Of a stretch of DNA of 64,000 nucleotides, positions 2,470 to 50,468 are shown piece by piece; the first letter of the stretch is position 1, and each line of letters opens with the position of its first letter. Source of the DNA: Polychytrium aggregatum (taxonomy: Eukaryota > Chytridiomycota > Chytridiomycetes > Polychytriales); the NCBI RefSeq assembly GCF_025602895.1, contig NW_026516251.1:248001-312000 (forward strand), in the 5' to 3' direction. The translations under genes were made by a program, and so were the position numbers. The notes below the pieces were generated by a model. It saw nothing but the letters and a program-made list of their open reading frames with translations, ran no database searches and was not told the origin of the DNA.

Positions 2470-3250
2470 GTTTCGACTGGGCGCCGAAGATATGACAACA
2501 CTGAAAATCGCTGGACACTGCACCGATGAATGGAAGCGCAATGCGATGACCTCTATATATTTCAGCAGAGCAGCCAGTGGCCCGGCGTGGACTGAGGGTA
2601 TGGCCATTCAATATACACTTGCTTGTGACCCAACGATGGTGCCGACAGCTTCCACATCGGCAATCACGACCATGCTGCATGGCGTGTGGGCAATGATGCA
2701 GATGCTCTGCGAAGGAGTGGAATATCGCCGCCGTGATCGACACTGAATGGACTTGCAGTGGCTGTCCAGCAGCACATGCACCAGAGTCTTGCGGGACTTG
2801 CTCATCCGATCACTGGCGTGGCAATCCGTTCGCTTCTCGATCCCACTCGGCGGTCTTTACCATCTCCCACAGCCCGACATGCCCCATCGTCTCATAGTAT
2901 CATTTAACAGTCCCGTCATCTGGCGGATCTCGTCATCTCCCACCACCTGGCGCAATCTCCACCTTCCGCCATGTCTGTCGCTGCATGAATCCGATCGCGA
3001 GCGGCATGACCAGTGCTCATATTCCCACGCACCAATCTCGCCAACACCGCTGATCCCCACACCACCCACTCCGGGATTCCGACGCCCTCCGTTAGGATTC
3101 ATGCAGTGCTCGGGCTCGCCCCGCTTTGGAGTCCAGCGCGGCCGCCGCTCTCCAGCGCCGCCGACACCTTGCTTGCTCGCGAGTATAAGTACTCCCGCCG
3201 ACACCTCGCCCTTCTTCCAGCACTGCACCGCCATCGCAGCCATCACTTCC
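2470..3250. other. Intergenic region, 3' UTR plus promoter
   Basis: No convincing coding sequence. The left part should be the 3' UTR of the zinc-finger gene and the right part the promoter of the pseudokinase gene, with a TATA box at 3184. The open frame through 2747-3250 is in phase with the downstream gene but upstream of the TATA box, so it is probably not translated. Confidence 0.5.
3184..3190 (+). promoter_or_regulatory. TATA box of the pseudokinase-WD40 gene
   Basis: TATAAGT lies 61 bp before the ATG at 3251. This spacing supports that ATG rather than the in-frame codons further upstream, including an ATG near 3101. Confidence 0.5.
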
Positions 3251-6200
3251 ATGACAGCACCAGATCTTTCTCGCATCTCGGCCGACACCTTGTCCCTCCT
3301 GTCGTCTGTCGCTGCCGCACCCCTCGCGGATGTGCTCCAGGTTGCTGCTACTCTGTTCTCCGTCCTTGACAAGATCCAAGAGAACCACCACTCCTGGATA
3401 CTCTTTGCCAGTGCCTTGCATAACGTCCTTCATGCCCTCGCCCAGCCTCGGATCGACAGCTCTGACTTTGCCGAGGCTGTTGGTCGCCTCCATTTGCTGC
3501 TCACCCGGGCACTCCAGCTCACCACTGACCTCCAGACCCGCACCAGAGTCGAGAGGCTCGTCAAATGCCACATATGGCTTCGTATGGTCCAGCAGCTCAT
3601 CACAGAGCTTTCTTCGATTGCCTCAAGCGACGTTCTTGCTCTCTCCGTCAACTGTGATGGCATCCTGGCCGAGCCCCATCTCCGCCAAGCCATTGATGCC
3701 GACACCGCCCAGACCCAGGCTCACATCGCCCAGATTGCCCAACAGCTCCAGGCCGACGATCTTTCGGCACTTGGCGAGGTGGACATTGCTACCGACATGC
3801 CGGACTGGCAGCTCTGTCAAGCAGCCGATGCCCTGGTCAGACTTGCCGATGACGAGTCGACTCCCAGGGCACTGCTCGATAGCATCGTCGCTCCGCTCCT
3901 CCAGATGCTCCAGTCGCAGTCTGCAGTCGCCCGCTCGATCGTCAAGGAGTGCTGGCGCATCCCACGCTCGGCCATCACCAACCGCTCGCCCCACCCCATC
4001 GTCCGCGAGGAGTATGCAGAGACCTACATCGCCTCGTACGTTGGATTCGATGTTGCTGCCAAGCTGTTGCTCCTCAGCTACGACATGTCCGAGATGTCCA
4101 TGTTTCGGCGCAGACTCGGCATCTGGCACGGACTGACCCATCCAAACATCCTCCCGCTCTATGGCGCCTGCGATACTGCCGAGGAGCTCTTCATTGTCAC
4201 TCAACTCATGCCAAACGGCACCCTCCGCGAGCACGTCTCGAACCCTGCCAACTCTCCCACCCTCGGCGAGAGGCTCAGGTTGATGAACCAGGTGGCTGCT
4301 GGGATGGCCTATCTCCACAAGAACGGCATTGTCCATGGGAACCTGGACCTGGAGAGCATCCTCCTCGACGACTCCCTGCGTGCCGTTGTTGCCAACCTTG
4401 CCGCTCACCACATCTGGTCAGCCGCTGCTGCCGACGACGACAGCTTTGTCGAGTACCGGGCACCCGAGATGCTGGATGACGAGGACTCGTCCGAGGCCAC
4501 GACGAAAGCTGACGTCTACGCCTTTGCCGTCGTCCTCTACCGGACCCTGAATGGCGGCAGGACAGGTTGGCTGGCCAAGGATGGCAGACCCATGAGGCCC
4601 CATGCGATCGAGCGCCAGGTCTGCAAAGGAGGCCGGCCAAGGCGTCTGGACAGCATCCCCGACGATGTATGGGCCCTGATCGAGCAGTGCTGGCACCAGG
4701 ATCCCGCTCAGAGACCGGGCTTTGAAGAGATTACTCTGTTGCTGCACCCGCACATGGATACCCTGGCTTGTTCCCGTCAGATTACAACAGCCCGCTCAGT
4801 GACAGGACCCGACGTATCGACCCTGAGTGAGGACAAACCTGTGCCGTTGAATGCCACAGATCAGCCCAGCGATGGGAGACAAAGCGACGACAATGTCAAG
4901 GCTCCAGGCGATCAAGCGACGACTCAAGACAACGCACCAGGCAGTGTCGTGGATCAACCCGTGTTGCCAACGAAGCTGGGCCCTACGCACAACGAGATTC
5001 CTCAGTCTGTCGAGCAGGAGCCTGCACCCAAGTCCTGGGTTGGCAAGATTCGATCAAGCAGCATCACGGATATACTGGACATTATCGATACGATCGACTT
5101 TGCATCAGATGACAGCGACAGCGTCGACGACAACCTGGAGCTGTCGTTCTCGATGATCCGCACGCTCGAGAGCGACTCTAATGTCATCAAGCAATACCGA
5201 AATGCATTCTCCAGCATCTATAAGCAATCCAAGCATCCGAAAGAGTTGCACGCCGTCGTTTCAGCAATCGCCCTGACCCAAGCTCGCCTGACCCCTGTGA
5301 TCATCTCCAATCTCTTAGGACTCGATATTGGAACAGTCAGAGCAAGCATACAGGAATTGGGCCATGTCATCGATGCTCAGCACAATGGACGCTACGACAG
5401 TACCATTTCGCGACTCAAAACTCACAAATCGGTATCATCATTCTTGCTCAGCGAGCAGTCGCTCGGCGAGCGCTTCCATGTACCGGGCAGGCTCCATGTG
5501 GTACTTGCATCCAGGTGTCTGCAAGTGATTCTCTCGCACGAGCCCACGATCAATATTTGCGATGTCTACGACTTGCACGACAAAGTGCCCGACTTTGAGG
5601 ACAAAGTCAAGTCCAAGATCTCGCCGACGCTCCGGTACAGCGTTGCCTCATGGATTTCCCACTTTGTGTGGTGTCTGAGCCCGGACTGGATCACTAGACA
5701 AACTTGGAGGCAGTACAAAGACGCTGGATTGATCGAGCTGCTTTCCCGGTTCGTGTCGAGCCATGCGTTCTTCTGGCTCGAGTGCGGATCGCTCATCAAA
5801 TCCATCAAGCCCATCATCGATCAGCTCGATATTCTCTGGGAAGCCATCGCTCGGGCACCCAACGATATCATCGACAACAAGACCAATGCGCTCGTCTGGA
5901 ACATCAGAAGGTTCCTGCAAGAGTTCTCCGAGCCGATCGCCGCAAGCGCACCGCAAGTGTACAATTCGGGATATGTCTTCACACCCAAGGACAGCTTGAT
6001 CTACAAGACCTATGCCTCCGCCCTCGAGGACAAGATGCCGTTCCTGGTCACGGCTGGACTGCCAAGAACCTGGGACTCGGCATGGGAGCCAAGCCGGGTT
6101 TCTAACTGTTTAATCAGTGGAGCCATTGTGACCCCACAAGGAGAGTATATATTGGGAAGCGACTCTGATTGGAAAAACGGAGATAGTTCTGTTTGGGATG

Positions 6201-7283
6201 CTTTCACCGGTCAATACTACGGCTCGTTGCCATATGGAGCCAATTTCAAAACGGCTCGACTATCGAACGACCGCTCGTTCTTTGTGGCATCGACAAGGAG
6301 CAGGCTCATCATATGTGATGCGAATAATTACAGTCTGAGGCACACTCTGACCCCCACATCCGGCGGAGTTCAATCATTCGCAATAACGGATGATGATACC
6401 AAGATAGTGTCTGGATATGGTGATACTGTCGATATTTGGGATGTTGCCACTGGTGAAAGGGAATCCGGGCTCACATTGCCAAGACCAAAGGGACGATGTA
6501 ATGTATACATCAGTGTGTTGACAACATTTGCTCGCTCCAATTGAGGTTCATGATATCAAAGAGACCAAGTGCTCGCGCATTACTCACCAGAATCACTTTG
6601 TTTCATTCGGGTGCATCAGTGGTGGGCATTTCTCCAAGTGGAAAGTTGGCCGTATTCCGAAATGTTGACAGCACAATCAAAGTATGGGATGTTGAGAAGA
6701 GGGCACCAATGCAATCTCTCTCTGGTCACACCGGCAGTATACACGAATTTACCATATCAGCCGATGAGAGCATCATCACAGCGAGAGGATATGATAAAAC
6801 AGTCGCCTGGAAATTGGAAAATGGTATATTCGTCGAATCAAGTGCGGTGCAGCCTCTAACATACGAGAATGGCGACACTTGCATCAAGCACGGAGGCTGG
6901 AGCCTGGTCCAAACGGCAGCTTCATCCAAGTGGTTCAAACACGGGCCGCATTTGGTCTGGGTCAAGAATGTCGATCCCATTTGGTGTCGTTACAACAACC
7001 CTTACAGCGGCTTGTTCACATCGACATCAACCCCTCAGGCTTTGAAGTACATCCTATATGTAAGTTGCCCCATAGTCCTGGCCAGCCTTCATGGCCGCAC
7101 GTCTAATATCTGCACCGCTCAAAGCCCATATACCAGGACGCACCAGAGACCCACTTTGTGATGGCAAGGTTCCTGAGCAGTTCGGACGACCCGGAATGCC
7201 AGACCAGAGCAACCGAGCTCTTTGCCAAGGCCGCACAGGGCGGCTGTGTCCGGGCTCCACTTCAGAGCTTGGAAGTGAAGTAG
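3251..7283 (+). CDS. TKL-type pseudokinase fused to STAND-like helical region and WD40 repeats
   Basis: Proposed exons 3251-6502, 6562-7059 and 7125-7283 give about 1,302 residues. After an all-helical N-terminus (about 1-240) comes a kinase fold (about 245-505) with PNGTLREH, HPNILPLYGAC and a C-lobe WxxDP..RP motif. Catalytic residues are lost: the HRD loop reads HGNLDLES (Asp to Asn, Lys and Asn also gone) and the DFG site reads NLA, so it is a likely pseudokinase. After an acidic linker, residues about 645-900 resemble the winged-helix and helical bundle that follow NACHT in fungal NACHT-WD40 proteins (LTPVIISNLLGLDIGTVRAS), but there is no P-loop. Degenerate WD40 blades (IKVWDVEK, VDIWDVATGE) follow, and a short Sel1-like tail ends at 7283. 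Exon 1/2 splicing (GTATAC..AAAG, 59 nt) bypasses a stop at 6542 and is the weakest junction; a frameshift is the alternative. Confidence 0.7.
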
Positions 7284-10514: not shown

Positions 10515-11225
10515 GGCGGGTTTGTTCTTTTGCACCGGCTTCTCGGTTTGCGGGACGGGGACGGGGACTGGGGCAGCGGCTACAGGAGCAGGCGCGGGCT
10601 GGGCGGGTCTGTCGACGACGAGGGTCTGAACCGAGGAGTATTCAATATCGAACCAAGGGGCTGTTTCGAGCGAGAAAGGTCAGCGACGCCACCGCCATGA
10701 CGGCGATCCGATGCAGACCGCCGCCGACAATGCAGCTGTGCGAGAGTACTTGCCGCCGTTCCTTGACATGGATCTGGATCTGGATCAGACGCAGGCAGGG
10801 CCTTCAGACGGGGCTGGATCGCGGAAATGTCGGGCAGGACGAGGATGCGCCGACACGGCCAAAAAATAGGACAGGCTCGTGTAACCGTTTTCTTTTTTCC
10901 AGCAGGTGGCGTGGCTTTGCCTCTGACGACTCACACGATCGAGAGGGCAACATGATGCCGGCGATGCCGCCAGTGATATCGCCATGCATGCTGCAGACGA
11001 TGTTGCTGGTGATGTCGCCGACGCCGGGCAGCAGACGAGTCGATGTGGTCGTGGCTATTGTGTCAGATGGATCAGCGCAGTCTCGGCGGTGGATGCCGAA
11101 TATGCGAGTCGACAGCACCAACAGTCGCAGCGGACAGTGTGCTGGCGTCATAGCCCGCTCGAAGCAGAGCACGATCGATGTTCGTAAGACCGGTGTTGCG
11201 TTGGCAGCCGAGGTTATACACTTTA
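10515..11225. other. Intergenic region between DPS1 and transposon copy A
   Basis: It holds the upstream part of the DPS1 reading frame (to about 10660), probably a 5' exon and the promoter of that gene, then sequence with no convincing gene on either strand. The right edge is the TA target site of transposon copy A (11224-11225). Confidence 0.45.
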
Positions 11226-11319
11226 TTCAGAAAAAAAAAACGGGACAATATAGCCGTTTCCATGAACATGTAGTATGTGCTGTGCTTGCGTCTAGCAAAG
11301 CCACAAGAAATAAAACAGA

Positions 11320-13700
11320 TCACTTTGGCAGCCTCCGAGTGAAGACCACCGGTCGCTCTCCGGTCTCCACAATCGACCTGCATACTGTGATCATGTTGCG
11401 CGCCGCATTGACGTCGCGATTCCACACTGTCCGGCAGCTGGGATTCTTGCAGCTCCTGACAAAGTGGGAATTCGCAACACTGGGCGCATCGAGTCCTTCC
11501 AACTGAACTGGCTCCAGGCACTTGGAGCACACCTGCGAGGTGTTGAACTCGTTCGTCGAGGCCACCTTGACACTTCCATGATGGTGAGTGGGACGGCGAC
11601 GGTGGTGCTCGAACTGCTCAAAGTACCGAGCAAATCGCTGCCTCCGAGGGCTGGATGCATAGCCCTTGCCTTGACGCCATGACGCATTGCCAAAGGCGAT
11701 CACCACATCAGTCCGTATCGGGGCGTGCTTCAGGACGGCCTTGCACATCCTGTCGACGGCCACTTGGCGCCTCTTGTGGCCCGTGAATCGATGGTGGCGG
11801 GCCTTCTTGCCAAGGTGGAAGTCGAGCTGCACTCGCAGCTCTGGTCGCAGGACATGGGTGAGATGGACCTTGAAGGCTTCCGAGGACGACACCTTGGGCG
11901 AGGGGGTGGTCGACATCCAGGTCTCGATGCTGAGTCGATACTTCATGGTGTTGTGCCACTTGGTGTTGGACGTATGGCCACACATGTGCTGATAGTGAGC
12001 ATTGGAGAACGAGACCACCTCGTCTTGGTGGCCCGGTGCTTGGATGACCGCAGTGAAGACGGAGCCGACTCCAGGATCGATGCCAATCCAAGTGGTGCGG
12101 TTGGGGTCTGGGTTGCCAATGTGGGCCTGGATGCGCTGCTCGGCAGTCGGAGGAGGCTCGATGGTCTCGAAGCGATCGGTTCGAGGCAGAAACTTGACGA
12201 GGCCGATGGTGCATCCAATGCCATCGGTGCTGATCTCGTAGTTGAACAGCTTCTTGTCCACGACCCGCTCTTGGAAGAGGGAACTACGCAGCTTGAAGCA
12301 ACTGCGCCAGAGACGATCCTGGTTGTTGATGCCGTCCTCACCTTCTTCCTTGAGCTTGTCCCTGGTGAGTCCAAGGCGCTTCTTTGGACCCAGGAGCTCC
12401 CAGAGTGCGACGGTGTCGATCTTGACATACTTGGCCTTGGCTGTGCACAGAGGGACCATCGTGCACACGGCCGGAGGAGTGTCCAGAGCGAGCTGCTTGA
12501 GTGCCCAGTTGATCCTGGCGGCCAGCTTGTTGATCTTGGCCTTGGTGGTGCCGAGCTCCGACTTGGCCTTGGTGAACCTCTTGTCGTCGGAGGGAATGCC
12601 TCTGGCAGTGAGCTCGTCCAGCTTGGCCTAGCGCTGCAGCTCGGTGACTCGGAGGGCGGGCATGTCACAGTCGATCCACTTGTGGACATTGTCGACCATC
12701 TTGTCCCGGGCGAGGATTCTCACATGGTATGAGAGGCGGTGGAGGGCCCGGAAGCGGTCCTGGTCGTTGCTGTACCGAAACTCGTCCAGGACGTGGCCAA
12801 AGTCTGGATAGAGGAACTCGAGATCGGCCTTGGGTGGAGTCTGCCCTGGTTTCTCGAAGAGCTCGAGACAGGCCTCGATGGCTTCGTGCTTGTGCTTGTT
12901 GGCTGGGAAGACGGCAGCACAGAAGCGACGAAGGAGTCTCCAGTAGGCCAGGTCGAGGTGGGTGGTGCAGTTGGTGGCATAGGCATTGACAGCCAGTGTG
13001 AGAAGCTGACTGCGGGCACCATCAGGCAGACGAGGGGCCGGAGGCAGGTCTGCGTGCCGAGTGGTCTGGTAGTCGCGAAAGGAATCGATCAGATGGTTGT
13101 CGTATTTCTCATTGTCCCCGGTCGGCGAGAGGGCACCGGCCTCGACAATCGTGAAGCATTGGCGGATGAAAGCAGGGGTGGTCTTGGAGATGACGGGGAT
13201 GGGAAGATCCTGCTCGATGCACCGGAGGATGTGCAGGTTGAGCAGCCTGGATGCCTCGAGAACTGGATCTGGGTCATGGCCTCGACGGTGGCCTGGATCT
13301 TGTCGCGGAGAGAGGGATTGAGACAACAGCCATCCATCGTCTGCTTGAAGCAGCTGAACTGAGGGGCGGATGACCTTCCATCCACGAGTGGGACGACAGA
13401 ACTCTTGAGGGGCCGGTATTTGGGACACTTGCTGGTGTTGCAACGTTCGTGATCGGTGCCATCGCACTGGCGACATCGCTTGATGGGACCAGATGAGGGA
13501 CCAGATGAGGGACCAGGCTCGGTGGGATCGACATCCATTGGATCTGCAGAAGCAGTGGTGGTGAGCGACGGAGCAACAGACGACCAAGCATACGTGGGGT
13601 CAGAATACGAACCAGAGACAGGCTCCGACTGTGACTTGGCTTTCTTGGGCCTGGGTGGCCGAGGCTGGCCATCGCCAGCACCCTTGCGCTTCGGAGGCAT
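11320..13700 (-). pseudogene. Fanzor (TnpB-like nuclease) pseudogene, copy A
   Basis: It aligns along its whole length with the intact Fanzor at 47002-49398. Against that copy it has a 24-nt in-frame loss near 13340, a 2-nt insertion near 13258-13262 that shifts frame, and a TAG at 12630-12628 where the sister has CAG. Downstream of the stop, 382 residues remain open, including GIDPGVGSVF (RuvC-I), the NEFNTSQVCSKC zinc-finger start and NRDVNAARNM (RuvC-III). The catalytic half therefore survives as sequence without an intact reading frame. A minus-strand TATA-like ATTTATA at 13829-13835 matches the promoter of the intact copy. Confidence 0.88.
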
Positions 13701-13884
13701 GGGGACAGAGGATGCTGGATGTCTGCCAGTGGTACTGGTCAGAGCAGAGACTTCTCTTTATCGTACAATAGCGCGATGATCAGATCAAGGCGAGATGAGG
13801 GAAGAAAGCAGCAGGACGAAGGTGTGGCATTTATACCCGAGAGCAGGAGCCCGTCTTTGCGGGCTGGTTGGGAAGTGACCCTGT

Positions 13885-14781
13885 TCAAAAATCGCCGAGA
13901 GGTTCAAGCCAGGGATGTGAACGCGAAAATGGCGGAGTGATTGGAGGGAACTCAACCCCAAAATTGATGGGGACTAAACCCCAAATCGGTGGGGACTCAA
14001 CCCCAAAGAAGTTCTCGATGGGATTGAAGTCGGGCGAGGCAGGTGGGGTGAAGATCACTGACCATCCTCGGCGCTCGATGCAGTCCAGGACAGCCATTGT
14101 CTTGTGCATGCTGACATTGTCCATCACAATCACAGAGTCGTCTGGGAAGGCCACTCGCTCAAAGAACTCGACCATCGAGTGTGTCTTGAATGATGTGGGG
14201 ATGTACATGCGATGCAGCACACCAGAGTGGTTGATGGCAAATGCAGCCGAGACAGACTTGTGTTTCATGTGATTGCGCTGGCGAAGCGGAGCACCCTTCG
14301 GTGAGTATCCGTAGAGAGGGAAAATGGATTTCCTGATCCCTGTCTCGTCGACAAAAACGAATCGTCGTGGGTCGATGGAGCGGACCTGGTCCCTGAACTG
14401 TGCCACCCGCTCATCCAGTCGCTTGGACTTGTAGAGGTGTGTTGCCCTCTTGTGTGAGAGACCTGCTCGCTGGATGGCAGTGTGGCAGAGTGAGAGTGAT
14501 ACTTTCCTCTGGAGGATGGACTCGAGCTTGCACCGCAGCACAGGACCAGTCTGGAACGGGTCCTGTTCAATCAGGGTGCGAATGACTGGACATGCCTGCT
14601 CGAAGAAAGTGGATCTGCGAGCTGGGACCCGGGATGGGTCATCCAGCTTGCATCCTCGGTGCCATCGATGGATGGTGCTCTTGGATACACTGAATATGGA
14701 GGCGACCTTACGCAGGCTATGGATGAGGGCGTAGCATCGCAATGCGGCGGTGCGAAAGTCGGATGTGTGGCGAATGGTCAT
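13885..14781 (-). pseudogene. DDE transposase, C-terminally truncated, copy A
   Basis: The reading frame is open from its ATG and nearly identical to the transposase at 45817-46749 through the last catalytic motif (PIENFFG). Immediately after that motif the normal C-terminal 50 or so residues are missing. They are replaced by about 66 bp of GGGGTTGAGTCCCC-type repeat, and the frame runs on into unrelated residues. The catalytic triad is kept, but loss of the C-terminal helices probably inactivates the enzyme. Confidence 0.85.
13946..14012 (-). repeat. Three imperfect 22-bp repeats at the transposase deletion scar
   Basis: On the minus strand the unit begins GGGGTTGAGTCCCC (variants GGGGTTTAGTCCCC and GGGGTTGAGTTCCC) with AT-rich spacers. 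The intact element has only one such unit, overlapping the transposase stop codon, so here it was amplified as the coding sequence was lost. Confidence 0.75.
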
Positions 14782-15051
14782 GGCCAGCGCGCGATAACAT
14801 TGGGTAACAAAATATTCGATGAATGGTCAAAATCCCGGGTGTCCTTTTTTATTGGATTGCCTGTAAATGCAGCTCGTTGTTCCAAATGCAGCCAGTACGT
14901 GGCCAGCCGCAGCGTCAGCCCGCCCGGCTTCCAGGCGCTGCGCATTTTAATTGGCAACCGTTTTTTTGTTTTTTGTTTCGCGCTGGCCGATCGATCGTCT
15001 GCTGCTGCTGCTGCTGTTGTCGATCGCACTGCATCCAACGCTCGCCACACC

Positions 15052-33680: not shown

Positions 33681-35543
33681 TCACTGGGTTGGGCAAATGG
33701 ACCTTGGCTTGGACTGGAGCTCTTTGACGCTGTGGATAGCCCACAGCAGATCCTGGTCGGCCGCCTTGCGGTACCAGTCGAGAGCGATTCCGATGTCCTT
33801 GGAGACACCCTCGCCGGTCTCGTAGCAGCGGCCGAGGTACCACTGTGCGTACCGATTGCCCTGTTCGGCGGACTTGCGGAAGGTCTCGGCTGCCTTGACG
33901 AAATCCTTGGCAATCGTGCGTCCCCAGTAGTAGCATCGACCAAGTTCCCACTGGCCATACGGATCGCCCTGGTTTGCAGCCAGGGTGTACCACTGTATCG
34001 CCGCAGCATGGTCGATGGATACTCCCAACCCCCAGTAGTAGCAGCGTCCCAGCCAGACTTGATTGATGCAGTTTCCGTTGCTGGCGAGCCGCTCAAAGAT
34101 GCCCACGGCCTTCTTCTGGTCCCGCGAGGTTCCGAACCCAAAGAACACACACACGGCCATCAGATGCTTGCACAACCAATCTCGCTCTGATCCCAGCTGG
34201 CACAGCTCAAAGAACCGACAAGCCACAGAGGAATCGGAGAAGGTGTTATCGCTGAAGGCCAGACATTCGCTTTCTCCAAGCGGGAACAAGTCCGACCTGC
34301 TGTCGCGGATCGTCTTGACGCCCTTCAGTTGGTCCCGCACAGTGCCGCGGCCGAGATAGTGCATCCATCCGAGCATGTGGGTGGCGATGGGTTTGATGAT
34401 CGGATCGTCGGATTGGGTGCTGACTTCCTGCCAATGGTTGAAGGCAACTTGATCGCTCTGCTCGACGCCATGGCCGATCAGCGCAAACCAGGCCATTCGG
34501 TGGCGCGTCTCCAGGTTGCTGGTATCGGTGCCGATATCAAGGAGCTGAGCGACTGGCTCCCGGCCAGGGTTGTCAGCAGGAGAGCGACCAGAGATGGCCT
34601 TGACAGCATCTGCCCGCTCACCGACCGGTCCATCCGATTCAGACTCGGGGAGAGGTGTTGCTGCATCGAGAATTGCAAGGATCTGAGGGAACGCAAGCTG
34701 ATCCGATGGAATGCAGACGCAACAGCGCTTGACGAGAGCCCAGATGCCGTCAGGGACACCGTCGACTCGGCTGAGGCTTTGGCCATCACGGATAGCAGGC
34801 TCGGTAGCTTGAACATGCCGGGCTTGCGCGTCGCCAGTGGCCCAGACCGGCTTGCCGTCGTTCAGGACTTCGTACATCAAGATGCCAAATGCATGGATAT
34901 CTGCGGCTCTCGATGACTCAGCTGGTCGCTCGTCGGCGAGGGTCTTTGGCGTTCGGTTGTCGAGACTGCCGTCGGTCTGACTCTTGGCTGCATGCGAGTC
35001 TATCGAGACGGATGTATGCTTGATACGAGACAGCCCAAAGTCACTGATGACAGCATTGACGCCACCGTCGAGGAGGACATTCGCAGCCTTGAGGTCGCCA
35101 TGAGCGACATTGTGTTCATGGAGATACACCATCCCCGCAGCCACTTGGCGGAGCAAACGGAGCTTCTCCCCGAGGGAGACAGGGGTGGCTGGGTCCGACA
35201 CATGGTCGCGGAGGGTGCCGTTTGGCATGAAGGGCGAGACCATGAAGGGAGGAATCGGATTGCCGTCGTCATCCCGGTCGCAGGCACCGAGCAGGGACAG
35301 GACGTTGGGATGGCTGAGCTTCTGCCAAAGATCGATATCGTGATGATATTCATTGAGCTGATGGGTGCTGCATGTGTCGAGGAGCTGCTTGATGGCGACC
35401 TTGGAGCCAAGGTATGTGCCGGTGAAGACCGAGTCAAGGCCACCACGACCGATGGGGTTGGCCGAGCGGTCGGTGATGTCGCTGGGCGCGATGTACCAGG
35501 ACAGCCGCTCGGGAGAGGGGCGAACGAAGGGCTCGCTGGCCAT
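33681..35543 (-). CDS. TKL-like protein kinase with C-terminal Sel1 repeats
   Basis: A single-exon gene of 620 residues. The kinase domain occupies about residues 20-300. It has a Gly loop IGRGGLDSV, VAIKQL with the ATP-site Lys, the catalytic loop HGDLKAANVLLD, and SDFGLSRI, so it is probably catalytically competent. The activation segment after DFG is long and lacks a clear APE motif. After an acidic linker, residues about 390-610 hold Sel1 repeats (WLGRCYYWGLGV, WELGRCYYWG, WYLGRCYETGEGVSKD) typical of protein-interaction solenoids. It is divergent from a Sel1-only gene at 35839 that shares part of this block. The chosen ATG (MASEPF) avoids a simple-repeat region upstream that would encode unlikely sequence. 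Substrate and pathway are unknown. Confidence 0.85.
   Translation of the reverse strand: MASEPFVRPSPERLSWYIAPSDITDRSANPIGRGGLDSVFTGTYLGSKVAIKQLLDTCSTHQLNEYHHDIDLWQKLSHPNVLSLLGACDRDDDGNPIPPFMVSPFMPNGTLRDHVSDPATPVSLGEKLRLLRQVAAGMVYLHEHNVAHGDLKAANVLLDGGVNAVISDFGLSRIKHTSVSIDSHAAKSQTDGSLDNRTPKTLADERPAESSRAADIHAFGILMYEVLNDGKPVWATGDAQARHVQATEPAIRDGQSLSRVDGVPDGIWALVKRCCVCIPSDQLAFPQILAILDAATPLPESESDGPVGERADAVKAISGRSPADNPGREPVAQLLDIGTDTSNLETRHRMAWFALIGHGVEQSDQVAFNHWQEVSTQSDDPIIKPIATHMLGWMHYLGRGTVRDQLKGVKTIRDSRSDLFPLGESECLAFSDNTFSDSSVACRFFELCQLGSERDWLCKHLMAVCVFFGFGTSRDQKKAVGIFERLASNGNCINQVWLGRCYYWGLGVSIDHAAAIQWYTLAANQGDPYGQWELGRCYYWGRTIAKDFVKAAETFRKSAEQGNRYAQWYLGRCYETGEGVSKDIGIALDWYRKAADQDLLWAIHSVKELQSKPRSICPTQ
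34314..34436 (-). repeat. Inverted 123-bp repeat, arm 1 (in kinase-Sel1 gene)
   Basis: The reverse complement is identical base for base to 36616-36738. It encodes part of a Sel1-region segment (HWQEVSTQSDDPIIKPIATH and following residues). Confidence 0.9.
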
Positions 35544-35838
35544 GTTGCGAGGGATGGATGCTGGAAGAGATGAGTTGGAGGATGCAATAATGGAACAATG
35601 GCGCGATGGGATGACGGAACAATCGAGCGGTGGGATGACGGAACAATGGAGCGACGATTTGATGGAGTGATGGATGAGTGGGAATGTGGATGGCAAGCAC
35701 TCGATCCATGGATCCAGCCATGTTCATGGTTTGGTGGCTGTGCCACTCCCGTTCCATTTTGCCCATCTCGTCCTCCATCTGATCGCTTGGATATCATCAT
35801 TGCCGCTCCCATCACATCAGTCTCCTGCATCGCACATC
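35544..35838. promoter_or_regulatory. Bidirectional promoter of the kinase-Sel1 / Sel1 pair
   Basis: A 295-bp divergent intergenic region between two head-to-head genes. The part next to the kinase gene carries imperfect repeats of GGGATGACGGAACAAT (about 35590-35660). No clear TATA box is seen on either strand. Confidence 0.5.
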
Positions 35839-37344
35839 ATGGCCAGTGCCCATCCCACAACCGACATGGCTCGCCTTGCCATCGACGAACACAACCCTGA
35901 CATCTTCACCATCATCTGCTGCAACGACAGCTTCCAGCTTGCCCTCGACCACAACACCATCAAAGCCCTCCTCCAAGTGTGCAAACGAGCCCAGCCTCTC
36001 CTCAGTTCCAAGCTGACTCGCTTCCACACCTGGTGCCAGAATGCAGGACTGTGTCGTTCCGATGGACAGCTGCGAATCGGCATCACACCGAGCGACCGGA
36101 TCGCCCTCTCGATGCACTACAAGGATCAAGCTGCAACCGATCGATCCTGGCTCGTTGCCCTGGCCTACCGGGGCAACACTGTTGCCTCGTTTATCCTGGC
36201 TCGCATCCTCCAAGTCGATCTCGACAGATGTGAAATGAGACGATCCGTGCGCAAGACAACTCAGCAACAGGTCTTTTATCATCTGGAGAAGGCCGCCAAC
36301 GCAAGCCATCTGCTGGCGCAGTGCTATCTGGCCGAGTGCTATCATCAAGGTGTTGGGGTCGACCGAGATGACGCCAAGGCTGTCGCTCTGTATCGCAGCC
36401 TTGCGGACCGTGGACTCGCCCAGGCTCAGATCGGTCTCGGTCGATGCTTCGAGAGCGGTGAAGGTGTCGATCAAGACTATGGCATTGCCATCGAATGGTA
36501 CTCCAAGGCTGCAGACCAGGGCAGCGACGACGGCCGTCTCCACATCGAGTTTCTCCGAGGATGGTTCTCGCTCACTGGACACGGTGTCGAACAGAGCGAT
36601 CAAATTGCCTTTAGCCATTGGCAGGAAGTCAGCACCCAATCCGACGATCCGATCATCAAACCCATCGCCACCCACATGCTCGGATGGATGCACTATCTCG
36701 GCCGCGGCACTGTGCGGGACCAACTGAAGGGCGTCAAGGCGATTCAAGACAGTCGATCGATTGGATTTCCGTTCGGCGAAAACGAGTGCCTGGCTGCACG
36801 GCTGTGGACCGCTTGTGGTCCTCCAGCATCCCGCAAGTTCTTTGGATTGTGCCAGTCTGGATCGGACCGAGACTGGTTGTGCAGGCATCTGACGGCCGTG
36901 TGTCTGATCGAGGGCTTTGGCACCCGGCGAGACAAATCAAGAGGAGTCGAGATTGCCGAGCAGCTCGCACACGACGGCCATAGCGATAGCCAGTACTGGA
37001 TCGGAAGATGCTACTACTTTGGCTGGGGAGTGGTGGAAGATCACAAGAAGGCACTCGAGTGGTTCAGCAAATCGGCCGACCAGGGCAACTCGTACGGACA
37101 GTTGGGAGTCGGCGAATACTGCTACTTTGGCGACGGGGCTGCCGAGGACCACGCCAAAGCATTCGAATGCTTCCGCCTGTCGGCCGAGCAAGGCAATCGG
37201 CACGGGCAGCTCGGGCTCGGAGCATGTTTCAAGAATGGCTATGGAGTCACCCGGGACATTGACACTGCCCTCTTCTGGTACCGCAAGTCTGCCGAGTCGG
37301 GTCTCCGAGAGGCCCTCGATTCCCTCGAGGAGCTTGGCCAGTAG
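35839..37344 (+). CDS. Sel1-repeat protein
   Basis: A single exon encodes 501 residues. The N-terminal 100 residues (MASAHPTTDMARLAIDEHNP..) are unique. From about residue 145 onwards Sel1-type TPR-like repeats follow, such as CYLAECYHQGVGVDRDDAKA, LGRCFESGEGVDQDYGIAIE and WIGRCYYFGWGVVEDHKKAL. Such repeats bind partner proteins, often in signalling or ER quality control; no signal peptide is seen, so a cytosolic role is likelier. The middle (GHGVEQSDQIAFSHWQEVST) is shared with the divergent kinase-Sel1 neighbour. The ATG at 35839 was preferred over 35674 because the intervening codons overlap the promoter. Confidence 0.85.
   Translation: MASAHPTTDMARLAIDEHNPDIFTIICCNDSFQLALDHNTIKALLQVCKRAQPLLSSKLTRFHTWCQNAGLCRSDGQLRIGITPSDRIALSMHYKDQAATDRSWLVALAYRGNTVASFILARILQVDLDRCEMRRSVRKTTQQQVFYHLEKAANASHLLAQCYLAECYHQGVGVDRDDAKAVALYRSLADRGLAQAQIGLGRCFESGEGVDQDYGIAIEWYSKAADQGSDDGRLHIEFLRGWFSLTGHGVEQSDQIAFSHWQEVSTQSDDPIIKPIATHMLGWMHYLGRGTVRDQLKGVKAIQDSRSIGFPFGENECLAARLWTACGPPASRKFFGLCQSGSDRDWLCRHLTAVCLIEGFGTRRDKSRGVEIAEQLAHDGHSDSQYWIGRCYYFGWGVVEDHKKALEWFSKSADQGNSYGQLGVGEYCYFGDGAAEDHAKAFECFRLSAEQGNRHGQLGLGACFKNGYGVTRDIDTALFWYRKSAESGLREALDSLEELGQ
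36616..36738 (+). repeat. Inverted 123-bp repeat, arm 2 (in Sel1 gene)
   Basis: Identical to the reverse complement of 34314-34436, while flanking homologous sequence differs at many positions. Confidence 0.9.
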
Positions 37345-45538: not shown

Positions 45539-45746
45539 GAGCCACGAACCTGCGTCCGACACGTTTCGGTTGTCCGGCCTGGCCCGCTCCTGCATTAGAA
45601 TCAGGCCGCGGATGTTCTCCAACCTACCGAGCGGCAGCCTGCTTGAAGTCGAGTCCCCTGCGCCAAGAGCAGCGGCTCTGTTGATCCATTTTCGATCCCA
45701 TGCCGTTTCGTCGCCTCATCAGTTCTCTTTTACAGGCAATCCAATA

Positions 45747-45758
45747 AAAAACGGGACA
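45747..45758 (+). repeat. Terminal inverted repeat core, left end of copy B
   Basis: AAAAACGGGACA, 14 bp inside the left border; its inverse is at 49471-49482. Confidence 0.8.
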
Positions 45759-45816
45759 CCCGGGTTTTTGACCATTCATCGAATATTTTGTTACCCAATG
45801 CTATCGCGCGCTGGCC

Positions 45817-46749
45817 ATGACCATTCGCCACACATCCGACTTTCGCACCGCCGCATTGCGATGCTACGATCTCATCCATAGCCTGCGTAAGGTTGCCTCC
45901 ATATTCAGTGTATCCAAGAGCACCATCCATCGATGGCACCGAGGATGCAAGCTGGATGACCCATCCCGGGTCCCAGCTCGCAGATCCACTTTCTTCGAGC
46001 AGGCATGTCCAGTCATTCGCACCCTGATTGAACAGGACCCGTTCCAGACTGGTCCTGTGTTGCGGTGCAAGCTCGAGTCCATCCTCCAGAGGAAAGTTTC
46101 ACTCTCACTCTGCCACACTGCCATCCACCGAGCAGGTCTCTCACACAAGAGGGCAACACACCTCTACAAGTCCAAGCGACTGGATGAGCGAGTGGCACAG
46201 TTCAGGGACCAGGTCCGCTCCATCGACCCACGACGATTCGTTTTTGTCGATGAGACAGGGATCAGGAGATCCATTTTCTCTCTCTACGGATACTCACCGA
46301 AGGGTGCTCCGCTTCGCCAGCGCAATCACATGAAACACAAGTCTGTCTCGGCTGCATTTGCCATCAACCACTCTGGTGTGCTGCATCGCATGTACATCCC
46401 CACATCATTCAAGACACACTCGATGGTCGAGTTCTTTGAGCAAGCGACCTTCCCAGACGACTCTGTGGTTGTGATGGACAATGTCAGCATGCACAAGACA
46501 AGGGCTGTCCTGGACTGCATCGAGCGCCGAGGATGGTCAGTGATCTTCACCCCACCTGCCTCGCCCGACTTCAATCCCATCGAGAACTTCTTTGGGATTG
46601 TGAAGCATCAGTACAGGAAGGTGGCAGCGCTGAATGCGTCCGAGGGGTTCAGAGTCGGGATGGTGACCCTGTTTGAGTCTGCCGTTCGGAGGGTGCTTCC
46701 AGATGTCTTCCCACGGCTGATTGAGCGAGCGATGCGCTTCTGGGGTTGA
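45817..46749 (+). CDS. Tc1/mariner-IS630-type DDE transposase
   Basis: The cut-and-paste transposase of element B, 310 residues. The N-terminal 100 residues hold helix-turn-helix DNA-binding motifs (VASIFSVSKSTIHRWHRG). The catalytic core has Asp145 in FVFVDETGI, Asp221 in VVVMDNVSMHK and Glu256 in PDFNPIENFFG. There are 34 residues between the last two, a DD34E spacing typical of the Tc1/IS630 group. HTH and catalytic domains are complete and the C-terminus runs to FWG-stop. The start is 84 bp inside the left end. The copy-A homologue lacks the last 50 or so residues. Codon use is like that of host genes. Confidence 0.93.
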   Translation: MTIRHTSDFRTAALRCYDLIHSLRKVASIFSVSKSTIHRWHRGCKLDDPSRVPARRSTFFEQACPVIRTLIEQDPFQTGPVLRCKLESILQRKVSLSLCHTAIHRAGLSHKRATHLYKSKRLDERVAQFRDQVRSIDPRRFVFVDETGIRRSIFSLYGYSPKGAPLRQRNHMKHKSVSAAFAINHSGVLHRMYIPTSFKTHSMVEFFEQATFPDDSVVVMDNVSMHKTRAVLDCIERRGWSVIFTPPASPDFNPIENFFGIVKHQYRKVAALNASEGFRVGMVTLFESAVRRVLPDVFPRLIERAMRFWG

Positions 46750-46866
46750 GTTCCCTCCAATCAAGCCGCCATTTTCGCGTTCACATCCCTGGCTTGAACC
46801 TCTCGGCGATTTTTGAACAGGGTCACTTCCCCAACCAGCCCGCGCAGTCGGGTTCCTGCTCTCGGG

Positions 46867-46872
46867 TATAAA
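46867..46872 (+). promoter_or_regulatory. TATA box of the Fanzor gene
   Basis: TATAAA in the 252-bp gap between transposase stop and Fanzor ATG. It is 130 bp before the ATG and is conserved in copy A, suggesting Fanzor is transcribed independently of the transposase. Confidence 0.6.
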
Positions 46873-47001
46873 TGCCACACCTTCGTCCTGCTGCTTTCTT
46901 CCCTCATCTCGCCTTGATCTGATCATCGCGCTATTGTACGATAAAGAGAAGTCTCTGCTCTGACCAGTACCACTGGCAGGCATCCAGCATCCTCTGCCCC
47001 C

Positions 47002-49398
47002 ATGCCTCCGAAGCGCAAGGGTGCCGGTGATGGCCAGCCTCGGCCACCCAGGCCCAAGAAAGCCAAGTCACAGTCGGAGCCTGTCTCTGGTTCGTATTCT
47101 GATCCCACGCATGCTTGGTCGTCTGTTGCTCCGTCGCTCACCACCACTGCTTCTGCAGATCCAATGGATGTCGATCCCACCGAGCCTGGTCCATCTACTT
47201 CCTCGAGTACTGGCAAGCGATGTCGCCAGTGCGATGGCACCGATCACGAGCGAAGCAACACCAGCAAATGTCCCAAATACCGGCCCCTCAAGAGCTCTGT
47301 CGTCCCACTCGTGGATGGAAGGTCATCCGCCCCTCAGTTCAGCTGCTTCAAGCAGACGATGGATGGCATCTTCTGGAAGAATGCAAAGAAACAGTGGCTC
47401 AATCCCGACCTCTGGGGCAAGATCCAGGCCACCGTCGCAGCCATGACCCAGATCCAGTTCGAGGCATCCAGGCTGCTCAACCTGCACATCCTCCGGTGCA
47501 TCGAGCAGGATATTCCCATCCCCGTCATCTCCAAGTCCACCCCTGCTTTCATCCGCCAATGCTTCACGATTGTCGAGGCCGGTGCCCTCTCGCCGACCGG
47601 GGACAATGAGAAATACAACGAGCATCTGATCGCTTCCTTTCGCGACTACCAGACCACTCGGCACGCAGACCTGCCTCCGGCCCCTTGTCTGCCTGATGGC
47701 GCTCACAGTCAGCTTCTCACTCTCGCTGTCAATGCCTATGCCACCAACTGCACCACCCACCTCGACCTGGCCTACTGGCGACTCCTTCGCCGCTTCTGCG
47801 CTGCCGTCTTCCCTGCCAACAAGCATAAGCACGACGCCATCGAGGTCTGTCTCGAGCTCTTCGAGAAACCAGGGCAGACTCCACCCAAGGCCGATATCGA
47901 GTTCCTCTACCCGGACTTTGGTCACGTCCTGGACGAGTTTCGGTACAGCAACGACCAGAACCGCTTCCGGGCCCTCCACCGCCTCTCACACCATGTGAGA
48001 ATCCTCGCCCGAGACAAGATGGTCGACAATGTCCACAAGTGGATCGACTGTGACATGCCCGCCCTCCGAGTCACCGAGCTGCAGCGCCAGGCCAAGCTGG
48101 ATGAGCTCACTACCCAAGGCATTCCCTCCGACGACAAGAGGTTCACCACGGCCAAGCCTGAGCTCGGCACCACCAAGTCCAAGATCAACAAGCTGGCATC
48201 CAGGCTCAACTGGGCCCTCAAGCAGCTCGCTCTCGACACTCCTCCGTCCGTGTGCACGATGGTCCCTCTGTGCACAGCCAAGGCCAAGTATGTCAAGATC
48301 GACACCGTCACTCTTTGGCAACTCCTTGACACCGAACATCGTCTTGGACTCACCAGGGACATGCTCAAGGATGAAGGCGAGGACGGTGTCAACAACCAGG
48401 ATCGTCTCTGGCGCAGTTGCTTCAAGCTGCGTAGTTCCCTCTTCCAAGAGCAAGTCAGGGACAGGAAGCTGTTCAACTACGAGATCAGCACCGATGGCAT
48501 TGGATGCACCATCGGTCTCGTCAAGTTTCTGCCTCGAACCGATCGCACCGAGACCATCGAGCCTCCTCCGACTGCCGAGCAGCGTATCCAGGCCCACATC
48601 GGCGACCCAAACCCCGATCGCACCACTTGGATTGGCATCGATCCTGGAGTCGGCTCCGTCTTCACTGCGGTCATCCAAGCACCGGGCCACCAAGACGAGA
48701 TGGTCTCATTCTCCAATGGCCACTACCAGCAAATGTGTGGCCATACGTCCAACACCAAGTGGCACAACACCATGAAGTATCGACTCAGCATCGGGACCTG
48801 GATGTCGACCACCCCCTCGCCCAAGGTGTCGTCCTCGGAGGCTTTCAAGGTCCATCTCACCCATGTCCTGCGACCGGAGCTGCGAGTGCAGCTCGACTTC
48901 CACCTTGGCAAGAAGGCCCGTCACCATCGATTCACAGGCCGCAGGAGACGCCAAGTGGCCGTCGACAGGATGTGCAAGGCCGCCCTGAAGCACGCCCCGA
49001 TACGGACTGATGTGGTGATCGCCTTTGGCAATGCGTCATGGCGTCAAGGCAAGGGCTATGCATCCAGCCCTCGGAGGCAGCGGTTCGCTCGGTACTTTGA
49101 GCAGTTCGAGCACCACCGACGCCGTCCCACTCACCCTCACGGAAGCGTCAAGGTAGTCTCGACGAACGAGTTCAACACCTCGCAAGTGTGCTCCAAGTGC
49201 CTGGAGCCAGTTCGGTTGGAAGGACTCGATGCGCCCAGTGTTGCGAATTCCCACTTTGTCAGGAGCTGCAAGAATCCCAGCTGCCGGACAGTGTGGAATC
49301 GCGACGTCAATGCGGCGCGCAACATGATCACAGTATGCAGGTCGATTGTGGAGACCGGAGAGCGACTGGCGGTCTTCACTCGGAGGCTGCCAAAGTGA
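47002..49398 (+). CDS. Fanzor: eukaryotic TnpB-like RNA-guided DNA endonuclease
   Basis: A single-exon 798-residue protein. The N-terminus is basic and nuclear-localisation-like (PPKRKGAG, PRPKKAKSQ), followed by a zinc-knuckle-like CRQCDGTDHERSNTSKC. The C-terminal third is the split RuvC nuclease of TnpB/Fanzor: Asp547 in WIGIDPGVGSVF, Glu723 in STNEFNTSQ, and Asp768 in WNRDVNAARNM. A zinc finger (Cys730, Cys733, Cys756, Cys761) lies between the last two. The usual RuvC-II strand (VVIAFGNASW, 674-677) has no Glu; Glu723, 46-49 residues later, is at the rearranged position described for Fanzor nucleases. Known Fanzors use an omegaRNA to cut DNA. No internal stop or frameshift is present, unlike copy A. 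Confidence 0.93.
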   Translation: MPPKRKGAGDGQPRPPRPKKAKSQSEPVSGSYSDPTHAWSSVAPSLTTTASADPMDVDPTEPGPSTSSSTGKRCRQCDGTDHERSNTSKCPKYRPLKSSVVPLVDGRSSAPQFSCFKQTMDGIFWKNAKKQWLNPDLWGKIQATVAAMTQIQFEASRLLNLHILRCIEQDIPIPVISKSTPAFIRQCFTIVEAGALSPTGDNEKYNEHLIASFRDYQTTRHADLPPAPCLPDGAHSQLLTLAVNAYATNCTTHLDLAYWRLLRRFCAAVFPANKHKHDAIEVCLELFEKPGQTPPKADIEFLYPDFGHVLDEFRYSNDQNRFRALHRLSHHVRILARDKMVDNVHKWIDCDMPALRVTELQRQAKLDELTTQGIPSDDKRFTTAKPELGTTKSKINKLASRLNWALKQLALDTPPSVCTMVPLCTAKAKYVKIDTVTLWQLLDTEHRLGLTRDMLKDEGEDGVNNQDRLWRSCFKLRSSLFQEQVRDRKLFNYEISTDGIGCTIGLVKFLPRTDRTETIEPPPTAEQRIQAHIGDPNPDRTTWIGIDPGVGSVFTAVIQAPGHQDEMVSFSNGHYQQMCGHTSNTKWHNTMKYRLSIGTWMSTTPSPKVSSSEAFKVHLTHVLRPELRVQLDFHLGKKARHHRFTGRRRRQVAVDRMCKAALKHAPIRTDVVIAFGNASWRQGKGYASSPRRQRFARYFEQFEHHRRRPTHPHGSVKVVSTNEFNTSQVCSKCLEPVRLEGLDAPSVANSHFVRSCKNPSCRTVWNRDVNAARNMITVCRSIVETGERLAVFTRRLPK

Positions 49399-49489
49399 TC
49401 TGTTTTATTTCTTGTGGCTTTGCTTGACGCAAGCACAGCACATACTACATGTTCATGGAAACGGCTATATTGTCCCGTTTTTTTCTGAA
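49399..49489 (+). ncRNA. Candidate 3' part of the Fanzor omegaRNA (element right end)
   Basis: The 91 nt from the Fanzor stop to the right border are almost identical to copy A: one substitution plus a difference in T-run length, despite a decayed protein gene there. They contain a hairpin at 49417-49439 with a 10-bp stem (one mismatch) and an ACG loop. In TnpB and Fanzor systems the guide RNA scaffold spans the gene's 3' end up to the transposon border, with the guide copied from flanking DNA. The assignment is inference from position, conservation and folding; a plain 3' UTR is the alternative. Confidence 0.5.
49471..49482 (-). repeat. Terminal inverted repeat core, right end of copy B
   Basis: TGTCCCGTTTTT on the plus strand, the inverse of the left-end core at 45747-45758. 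Confidence 0.8.
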
Positions 49490-50468
49490 TATAGCGTAGA
49501 TCCTTGCCCTCTCCTCCACTTCCTTTCCTTTCTTTCTTTCTTCTCTTCCTTTTTTGACGAGCCCATCGCACTTTGCACGGTTTTGCTTCACTCATCTGCC
49601 CACTTCTTCCACCGGGACAGCACCACGATCCCATCTGTGGCTTTCCAGCGACTTTTTCTCTCTGTTTGTTCATGCTGTGTCTCGCCCCGGGCGTCCAGGA
49701 TGACTTGAATGATGCAAACCCTGCATGAATACACACATTGCCATTCCACATCTTCCCAGGCGAACCGGCCCACCAAGACAACGGGGAGCAGATCGGAGAT
49801 CCTTGGCAGGCGAGCTACGTTCCCTTGGCAATCGTGTGAGATCCACGATGGGGGGCATCTCGGACATCGTCGGGTATCTTGTGTATCTTGGGCTGTGGAT
49901 CTGATACCGCCCATTCGCTCTGCCCCCTTAAGTATCGCTCTGCCATCGCCGCATCTCAAGCAATACGCGCTCTCCTCTCGTCTGCAAGGTTGATATCGCC
50001 GTCGGTTGTGTTCTGATTGACCCTGGTTGCTTGATTCTGCCCTCGGGCCGTCCTTTGTCTCTGCACCTCATTCTTGCCCACAATCTTGCCCACAATCTTG
50101 CCCACAATCTTGCCCACATTCTTGCCCACATTCGCTCGCCCGTCCATTCTTGTGCGTCGCTTGCAGGTTCCTGGCCGCTTGTCTTCGCTCCCGCTTTTGC
50201 TTCCTGTGCCCCTCTCTCTGTCCGCTTGCCGCCCCCACCCCTTGGAGGCCGTTGCTCTCTTGGTCCGCTGCCTTTGGCTCGCCTGTGCGTCTGTCCCGCC
50301 ATTCACGCACTGAGCCCTGTCTTGCTCCCCATCTCGCCTGCTAACGTCCGGTCGTTGTTCCTCTGTCGTTGCCCATCCAGCCCCTCAACGTCCAGCCCCT
50401 CAACGTCCAGCTCATCAACTTCCTGGCTCTTCCACACCCAACTTCGCGACGCCCAGCTCCCTTTAGAC
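49490..50468. other. Intergenic region and SWA2 promoter
   Basis: No gene supported. It contains about five copies of a 12-bp unit (CTTGCCCACAAT and CTTGCCCACATT) at about 50073-50132 and a CAACGTCCAGCCCCT repeat just before the SWA2 start. The leftmost bases, right after the TA, are the flank that could serve as the guide of the transposon's RNA. Confidence 0.5.

Follow-up and report, generated by a model that had tools for sequence, protein, structure and literature searches.

A complete transposon family pairing a DD34E transposase with a Fanzor-type nuclease in Polychytrium aggregatum, with a one-sided TTA at its insertion sites

A stretch of 64,000 nucleotides from the chytrid Polychytrium aggregatum (NCBI RefSeq assembly GCF_025602895.1, contig NW_026516251.1, positions 248,001 to 312,000; hereafter the window, numbered from its first base) contains, side by side, a gene for a DD34E transposase and a gene for a predicted Fanzor-type RNA-guided nuclease. 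Do these two genes belong to one transposon and, if so, what might the nuclease do for it? An earlier note, made from the sequence alone, had proposed a single TA-flanked and possibly active element with both genes intact. The element was borne out. The DD34E-Fanzor transposon family to which it belongs is real and unusually complete, and PUl-1 and PGv-1, reported in 2013, are elements of the same kind (PMC3627910).

One element with two intact genes

The window element spans positions 45733-49496 (3764 bp) and has a TA dinucleotide on both sides. Its transposase and Fanzor frames are both uninterrupted and lie in the same orientation, read in the standard code. Its parts are as follows.

45731..45732, no strand: left TA target duplication; the base before it is T (flank ...CTTTTA), giving a TTA motif
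45733..45758, + strand: left terminal inverted repeat, CAGGCAATCCAATAAAAAACGGGACA, with its inner 13 bp the same as in the right repeat
45817..46749, + strand: transposase of 310 residues, IS630/Tc1/mariner type (PF13358, NF033545, DD34E triad)
46750..47001, + strand: spacer between the two genes, with a TATAAA-like stretch, spotted by eye, upstream of the Fanzor start
47002..49398, + strand: predicted Fanzor-type RNA-guided nuclease of 798 residues (PF07282, DPG, E before CxxC, RD)
49471..49496, + strand: right terminal inverted repeat, finishing at the true right end of the element; this copy ends TATAGCG, most copies TAAAGTG
49497..49498, no strand: right TA target duplication, from the sequence and the alignment of loci

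A search of the genome with the full element gave 40 scored candidates, comprising 65 matched pieces. Twenty-five of them, the window copy included, span query base 1-4 to 3757, and because these candidates share common ends, both genes belong to one element; the possibility, raised in the earlier note, that further copies would place the ends elsewhere and the genes in different elements was thus rejected. For the test of TA duplication at the 40 loci, the ends were placed by alignment without requiring TA. On the left, where the earlier note had set the end at 45733 with TA at 45731-45732, its placement stood: TA abuts an intact left end in 29 of the 40 loci, and the other 11 have the outermost element bases altered or missing. 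On the right, the first TA after CTGAA had suggested an end at 49489, which the alignment of the 40 loci rejected as 7 bp short. In 38 of these loci CTGAA is followed by TAAAGTG, or a near variant, that is still element, and only then by TA and unique flank, so that the right end is 49496; the remaining two loci (L042 and L048) have lost the right end. The TATAGCG of the window copy is two bases off the majority, and its counterpart on the homologous contig has the exact majority pattern (C68:314340-314363). The terminal repeats are imperfect, the inner 13 bp (AAAAAACGGGACA) being identical and the outer 13 bp mostly unlike.

The transposase matched PF13358 (DDE_3) with an E value of 4.2e-24 and NF033545 (IS630) with an E value of 9.4e-37, scoring 127 bits where the cut-off is 100. 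Its catalytic triad is D145/D221/E256, with 34 residues separating the last two (DD34E). By domain, spacing, TA duplication and inverted repeats, it belongs to the IS630/Tc1/mariner group.

The 798-residue protein matched PF07282 with an E value of 1.7e-9, over the curated cut-off, as did all 27 aligned copies; the NCBIfam TnpB model matched the same stretch at 2.3e-6 and 27 bits, under its cut-off of 100. The N-terminus of the protein is basic and resembles a nuclear localisation signal. The features given for Fanzors in PMC10711439 are DPG at RuvC-I and a glutamate rearranged to six residues before a CxxC, and the protein has both (D547-P-G and E723-FNTSQV-CSKC), with a DPG-to-E spacing of 173 residues that is longer than the 120-160 of the search pattern used in that study. 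It also contains the TnpB/Fanzor pattern D-X(125,275)-[TS][TS]-XX-C4 zinc finger-X(5,50)-RD of PMC3627910, with TS at 726-727, a zinc finger starting at C730 and RD at 767-768. D547 and E723 are invariant in the 27 aligned proteins, and D768 is present in at least 90% of them. In its second half the zinc finger reads CxxxxC, as against CxxC in a second Fanzor family described below.

When profiles were compared, five TnpB-type proteins matched with a probability of 96.3 (E = 1.6e-9), restricted to residues 716-779; the control, the transposase, scored 0.1. This match is not independent evidence, because the five proteins were chosen from weak tblastn matches to the same stretch (nine plasmid records, with E values of 3-8, all on the C-terminal stretch). 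The best match of the Fanzor profile among solved structures was SpuFz1, a protein of 633 residues, with only weak similarity at the C-terminus (E = 0.18). A search of solved structures with the single protein gave LaTranC (E = 0.24) and interleukin-11 (E = 0.15), the latter taken as chance. Among viral contigs, the few patterns used found no relative of the transposase or the Fanzor. The sequence signatures support a Fanzor-type nuclease, and the non-IS607 transposon and the best match to SpuFz1 point to Fanzor1 rather than Fanzor2.

The window holds a second copy, in which the C-terminus of the transposase is deleted at a recurrent 868/1009 breakpoint and the Fanzor frame is broken.

11219..14863, - strand: second copy with the same ends, and TA at 14864-14865 (again TTA) and at 11217-11218

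Elsewhere in the window, large frames at 2747-7161 and 33681-37344 resemble, by eye, protein kinases of the TKL type bearing WD40-like or Sel1-like repeats, in an arrangement that suggests possible gene duplicates.

Copies, short forms and selection

The search for further copies that the earlier note had proposed covered 64.7 Mb in 418 contigs. Terminus patterns with up to two mismatches found 363 left and 310 right termini, and reversed-pattern controls found none. Distinct insertions are fewer than these counts, since many of the sites are represented on two homologous contigs. The family includes full-length, transposase-deleted, 1.1-kb and 0.3-kb forms. Of the left termini, the first 100 in the list were taken for pairing, and 64 had a partner among the listed right termini; with both TAs included in the lengths, nine pairs measure 0.28-0.39 kb, five 1.11 kb, 26 3.18-3.72 kb and 24 3.73-3.79 kb. 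In the nine shortest forms, what is left of the element is 97-207 bp at the left end and 164-212 bp at the right; in the five 1.1-kb forms it is 663 bp and about 445 bp, respectively. All 14 short forms examined retain the closing part of the Fanzor gene together with the 3' end. When seven short forms were compared with 40 long copies there was no fixed difference (the majority bases differ at one and two positions at the two ends), and hence no distinct ghost subfamily like that of Spizellomyces punctatus.

Open frames were counted in 60 loci. These are the 40 highest-scoring loci plus 20 drawn from the pattern lists, 14 of the 20 being short forms; the sample is biased to intact copies rather than random, and allelic copies count separately in it. 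Fanzor frames reach 770 residues or more in 34 loci and transposase frames 300 or more in 16; 11 loci have both, and in seven of these 11 the transposase has 310 residues and ends in RFW plus one residue. For the analysis of selection we used 54 loci (the 60 minus six allelic duplicates, two short allelic duplicates being kept). Among variants common to at least four copies, the ratio of nonsynonymous to synonymous polymorphism (pN/pS) was 0.25 for the transposase and 0.26 for the Fanzor; among singletons it was 0.37 and 0.52, respectively. The shared variants show that both genes are under purifying selection, and the difference from singletons fits constraint while the lineages replicated and relaxation after insertion.

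Seven pairs of long elements occupy the same site on homologous contigs. Their flanks differ by 0-0.8% and the elements by 0.7-4.7%; the counterpart of the window element, on the homologous contig, is transposase-deleted and shows 169 differences (about 4.7%), with flanks about 0.4% apart. Three of these pairs, including that of the window copy, are about as unlike as unrelated copies, and in the other four there are tracts with near-identical ends. Both states occur elsewhere in the family for 508 of 574 allelic differences, the same fraction as for differences between unrelated copies (6988 of 7970). Two allelic pairs of short forms were also compared, one being identical (0/311) and the other having 8 differences in 383. 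This allelic pattern suggests exchange between copies, or assembly error; because alleles look exchanged, internal divergence is no clock.

A second, diverged Fanzor family (L017:4266-4730; L121-L124) has about 68-69% DNA identity over the 3' part of the gene. It has many copies (40 candidates scored), and its ends are laid out in the same way; its zinc finger has a canonical CxxC as the second half.

The one-sided TTA and a candidate guide RNA

The patterns used to find the ends require TA, so that TA itself is not a count in the flank statistics. Genome-wide, T precedes TA at 197 of 205 exact left termini and another base at eight, allelic copies included. For distinct left sites the figure is 56 of 58, and 15 of 15 in a later subset; T precedes TA 11.7% of the time in the window as background. 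By contrast, no base is preferred after the right TA (G16 A14 C19 T15 of 64 distinct sites), and the comparison of left T (56/58) with right A (14/64) gave p of about 1e-18 (Fisher). One base further out, A or T occurs at 46 of 58 left and 39 of 64 right sites (p = 0.03), and this W is therefore the weaker signal. Short forms coding for neither protein have TTA at 11 of 12 distinct sites. The second Fanzor family, read by eye, has it at five of six distinct readable left ends (11 loci fetched, three duplicates and two unreadable ends dropped). A one-sided TTA is expected if TTA is the target-adjacent motif (TAM) of the Fanzor, although the transposase could also cause the asymmetry.

In the element SPu-1 of S. 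punctatus, according to PMC10432273, CA is conserved upstream of the left repeat and the TAM measured for SpuFz1 is CATA. Because of this parallel, we predict (W)TTA as the TAM in the window family and the right flank as the guide. The putative RNA features are these.

49331..49498, + strand: candidate omega RNA (guide-RNA scaffold), comprising the end of the Fanzor gene, the 3' noncoding stretch, the right repeat and TA; proposed from its fold and its retention
49499..49513, + strand: predicted native guide, the first ~15 nt of the right flank; proposed from the near-flat base composition of right flanks, with a length modelled on SpuFz1, whose guides are 14-15 nt long (PMC10432273)

The final 168 nt fold better than shuffled sequences (z = -2.7), as do the final 100 nt (z = -2.4). 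In 21 of 33 distinct ends of the window family, the stem that closes the fold has the TA paired to a UA upstream of it; two of four second-family ends do likewise in a stem of different sequence, and at control GTA sites TA is paired in 22 of 362. In Fanzor1 RNAs the duplication belongs to the predicted scaffold (PMC10711439). Rfam gave two matches, both far under the gathering score. The predicted folds lend modest support to a candidate guide RNA.

What the Fanzor may do for the element

Elements of the IS200/IS605 and IS607 groups resemble the window family in having a TnpB-family nuclease, and the TAM of TnpB sits at the left flank. They carry an HUH or serine TnpA, in contrast to the DD34E transposase of the window element, and the window Fanzor has a rearranged glutamate, unlike their TnpB. 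Other likenesses are found among eukaryotic elements. The Mariner elements PUl-1 and PGv-1 have a Mariner-type transposase and a Fanzor1 and are TA-flanked; PGv-1, by its description as single-copy and with a third gene, is set apart from the window family (PMC3627910). SPu-1, with SpuFz1, likewise has a putative TA duplication, inverted repeats and a Fanzor gene. It is reported at 42 loci with the gene and as 134 "ghosts" without it (PMC10432273, PMC3627910), and its published ghost loci retain the omega RNA, which comes from the 3' side of the Fanzor and the right repeat (PMC10432273); the short forms of the window family similarly retain the right end, and their omega RNA is a candidate. 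Unlike SPu-1, for which the authors state that they found no transposase between the repeats (PMC10432273), the window element contains one, and its motif is (W)TTA instead of CATA. Our literature search on chytrid Fanzors with a transposase led to the 2023 study of SpuFz1 and is no proof that the window family is unpublished.

We consider it probable (about 0.66) that the element is a TA-inserting DD34E cut-and-paste transposon with a Fanzor1-like module of the obligate mobile element-guided activity (OMEGA) type, and that its TTA insertions are retained by the Fanzor. Judging from its family, the transposase would cut at the terminal repeats and reinsert at TA. The Fanzor would be loaded by an RNA that covers the 3' end of its gene, the right repeat and TA and continues into ~15 nt of flank; with such an RNA, each copy would carry a guide against its own empty site. 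After excision, or on a homolog that lacks the element, the restored W-TTA site with its guide-matching flank would be cut by the Fanzor and then repaired by copying the element back. We infer that TTA insertions would persist and multiply because restored W-TTA sites are cut and refilled.

Several points limit the case for Fanzor-led retention. A search for empty alleles used the joined flanks of 47 sites out of 56, with the best 40 of 120 and best 40 of 82 candidates scored on the assumption that an uninterrupted site would rank first. It found none; 25 of these sites are filled on two or more contigs, another 10 on a single listed contig, and 12 are not listed. Filling of both haplotypes would also be expected if the haplotypes are recent. 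No empty site proves that the T is target DNA, for which the eight non-T cases argue. The predicted fold of the window copy itself leaves TA unpaired, as do two of four second-family folds; the mean z over the 33 ends of the window family is only -1.6, and these RNA ends are not independent of one another. AlphaFold gave a mean predicted local distance difference test score (pLDDT) of only 35.6 with the 27 copies, and 36.2 for the C-terminal 272 residues with partial second-family sequences. The possible activity proposed in the earlier note received no support from these comparisons: no empty allele turned up at those 47 sites, and the closest non-allelic near-full-length pair among 35 copies is 2.5% apart.

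Two apparent empty sites were rejected. A 79-bp match (89%) at site L064 proved to be filled, with a right flank that looks like a left repeat; there, a copy is inserted at a TA beside left-repeat-like sequence of a related element, as if a site adjoining an earlier element had been reused. At L017, beside a second-family Fanzor fragment, the left flank does not continue that family, which removed it as a nested empty site.

The main rival is that TTA reflects the transposase's own preference, an asymmetric transpososome picking a one-sided TTA at insertion while the Fanzor is a conserved passenger with another role. Target preferences in Tc1/mariner elements are usually symmetric about TA, and the flat base after the right TA departs from this symmetry. 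The TTA of short forms without either protein is what a transposase acting in trans would give, and the TTA of the second Fanzor family is likewise in keeping; however, a Fanzor acting in trans would leave an identical pattern, and the measured TAM of SPu-1 includes the bases that precede its left repeat (PMC10432273). We regard this explanation as the less probable one, but as a serious competitor.

A more far-reaching proposal, that the Fanzor drives RNA-guided copying into homologous chromosomes, would join homozygous insertions, TTA as TAM, break-led copying between family members and alleles with different interiors. We think it unlikely; if true, it would to our knowledge be the first natural OMEGA-driven retention of a DDE transposon in a eukaryote visible in genome data. 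Still less credible is a Fanzor that is decaying cargo with no current function. Its genes are broken in many copies and its singletons are less constrained (pN/pS 0.52), but pN/pS for shared variants is as low as in the transposase, long Fanzor frames outnumber long transposase frames (34 against 16 of the 60 loci), and the catalytic residues are conserved as given above. Chance nesting of two separate elements, refuted by the 25 of 40 candidates that hold both genes between the same ends, has next to no probability.

The role of Fanzors for their transposons is unsettled, and the best-studied fungal case, SPu-1, is reported to be without a transposase between its repeats (PMC10432273). Here, one high-copy family unites an intact transposase, an intact Fanzor, and transposase-less and gene-less derivatives that keep a candidate guide-RNA end. 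The strong one-sided TTA gives specific predictions, i.e., that TTA would be the TAM and the right flank the guide, and the family offers a natural two-component assay for whether a Fanzor raises the retention of its transposon.

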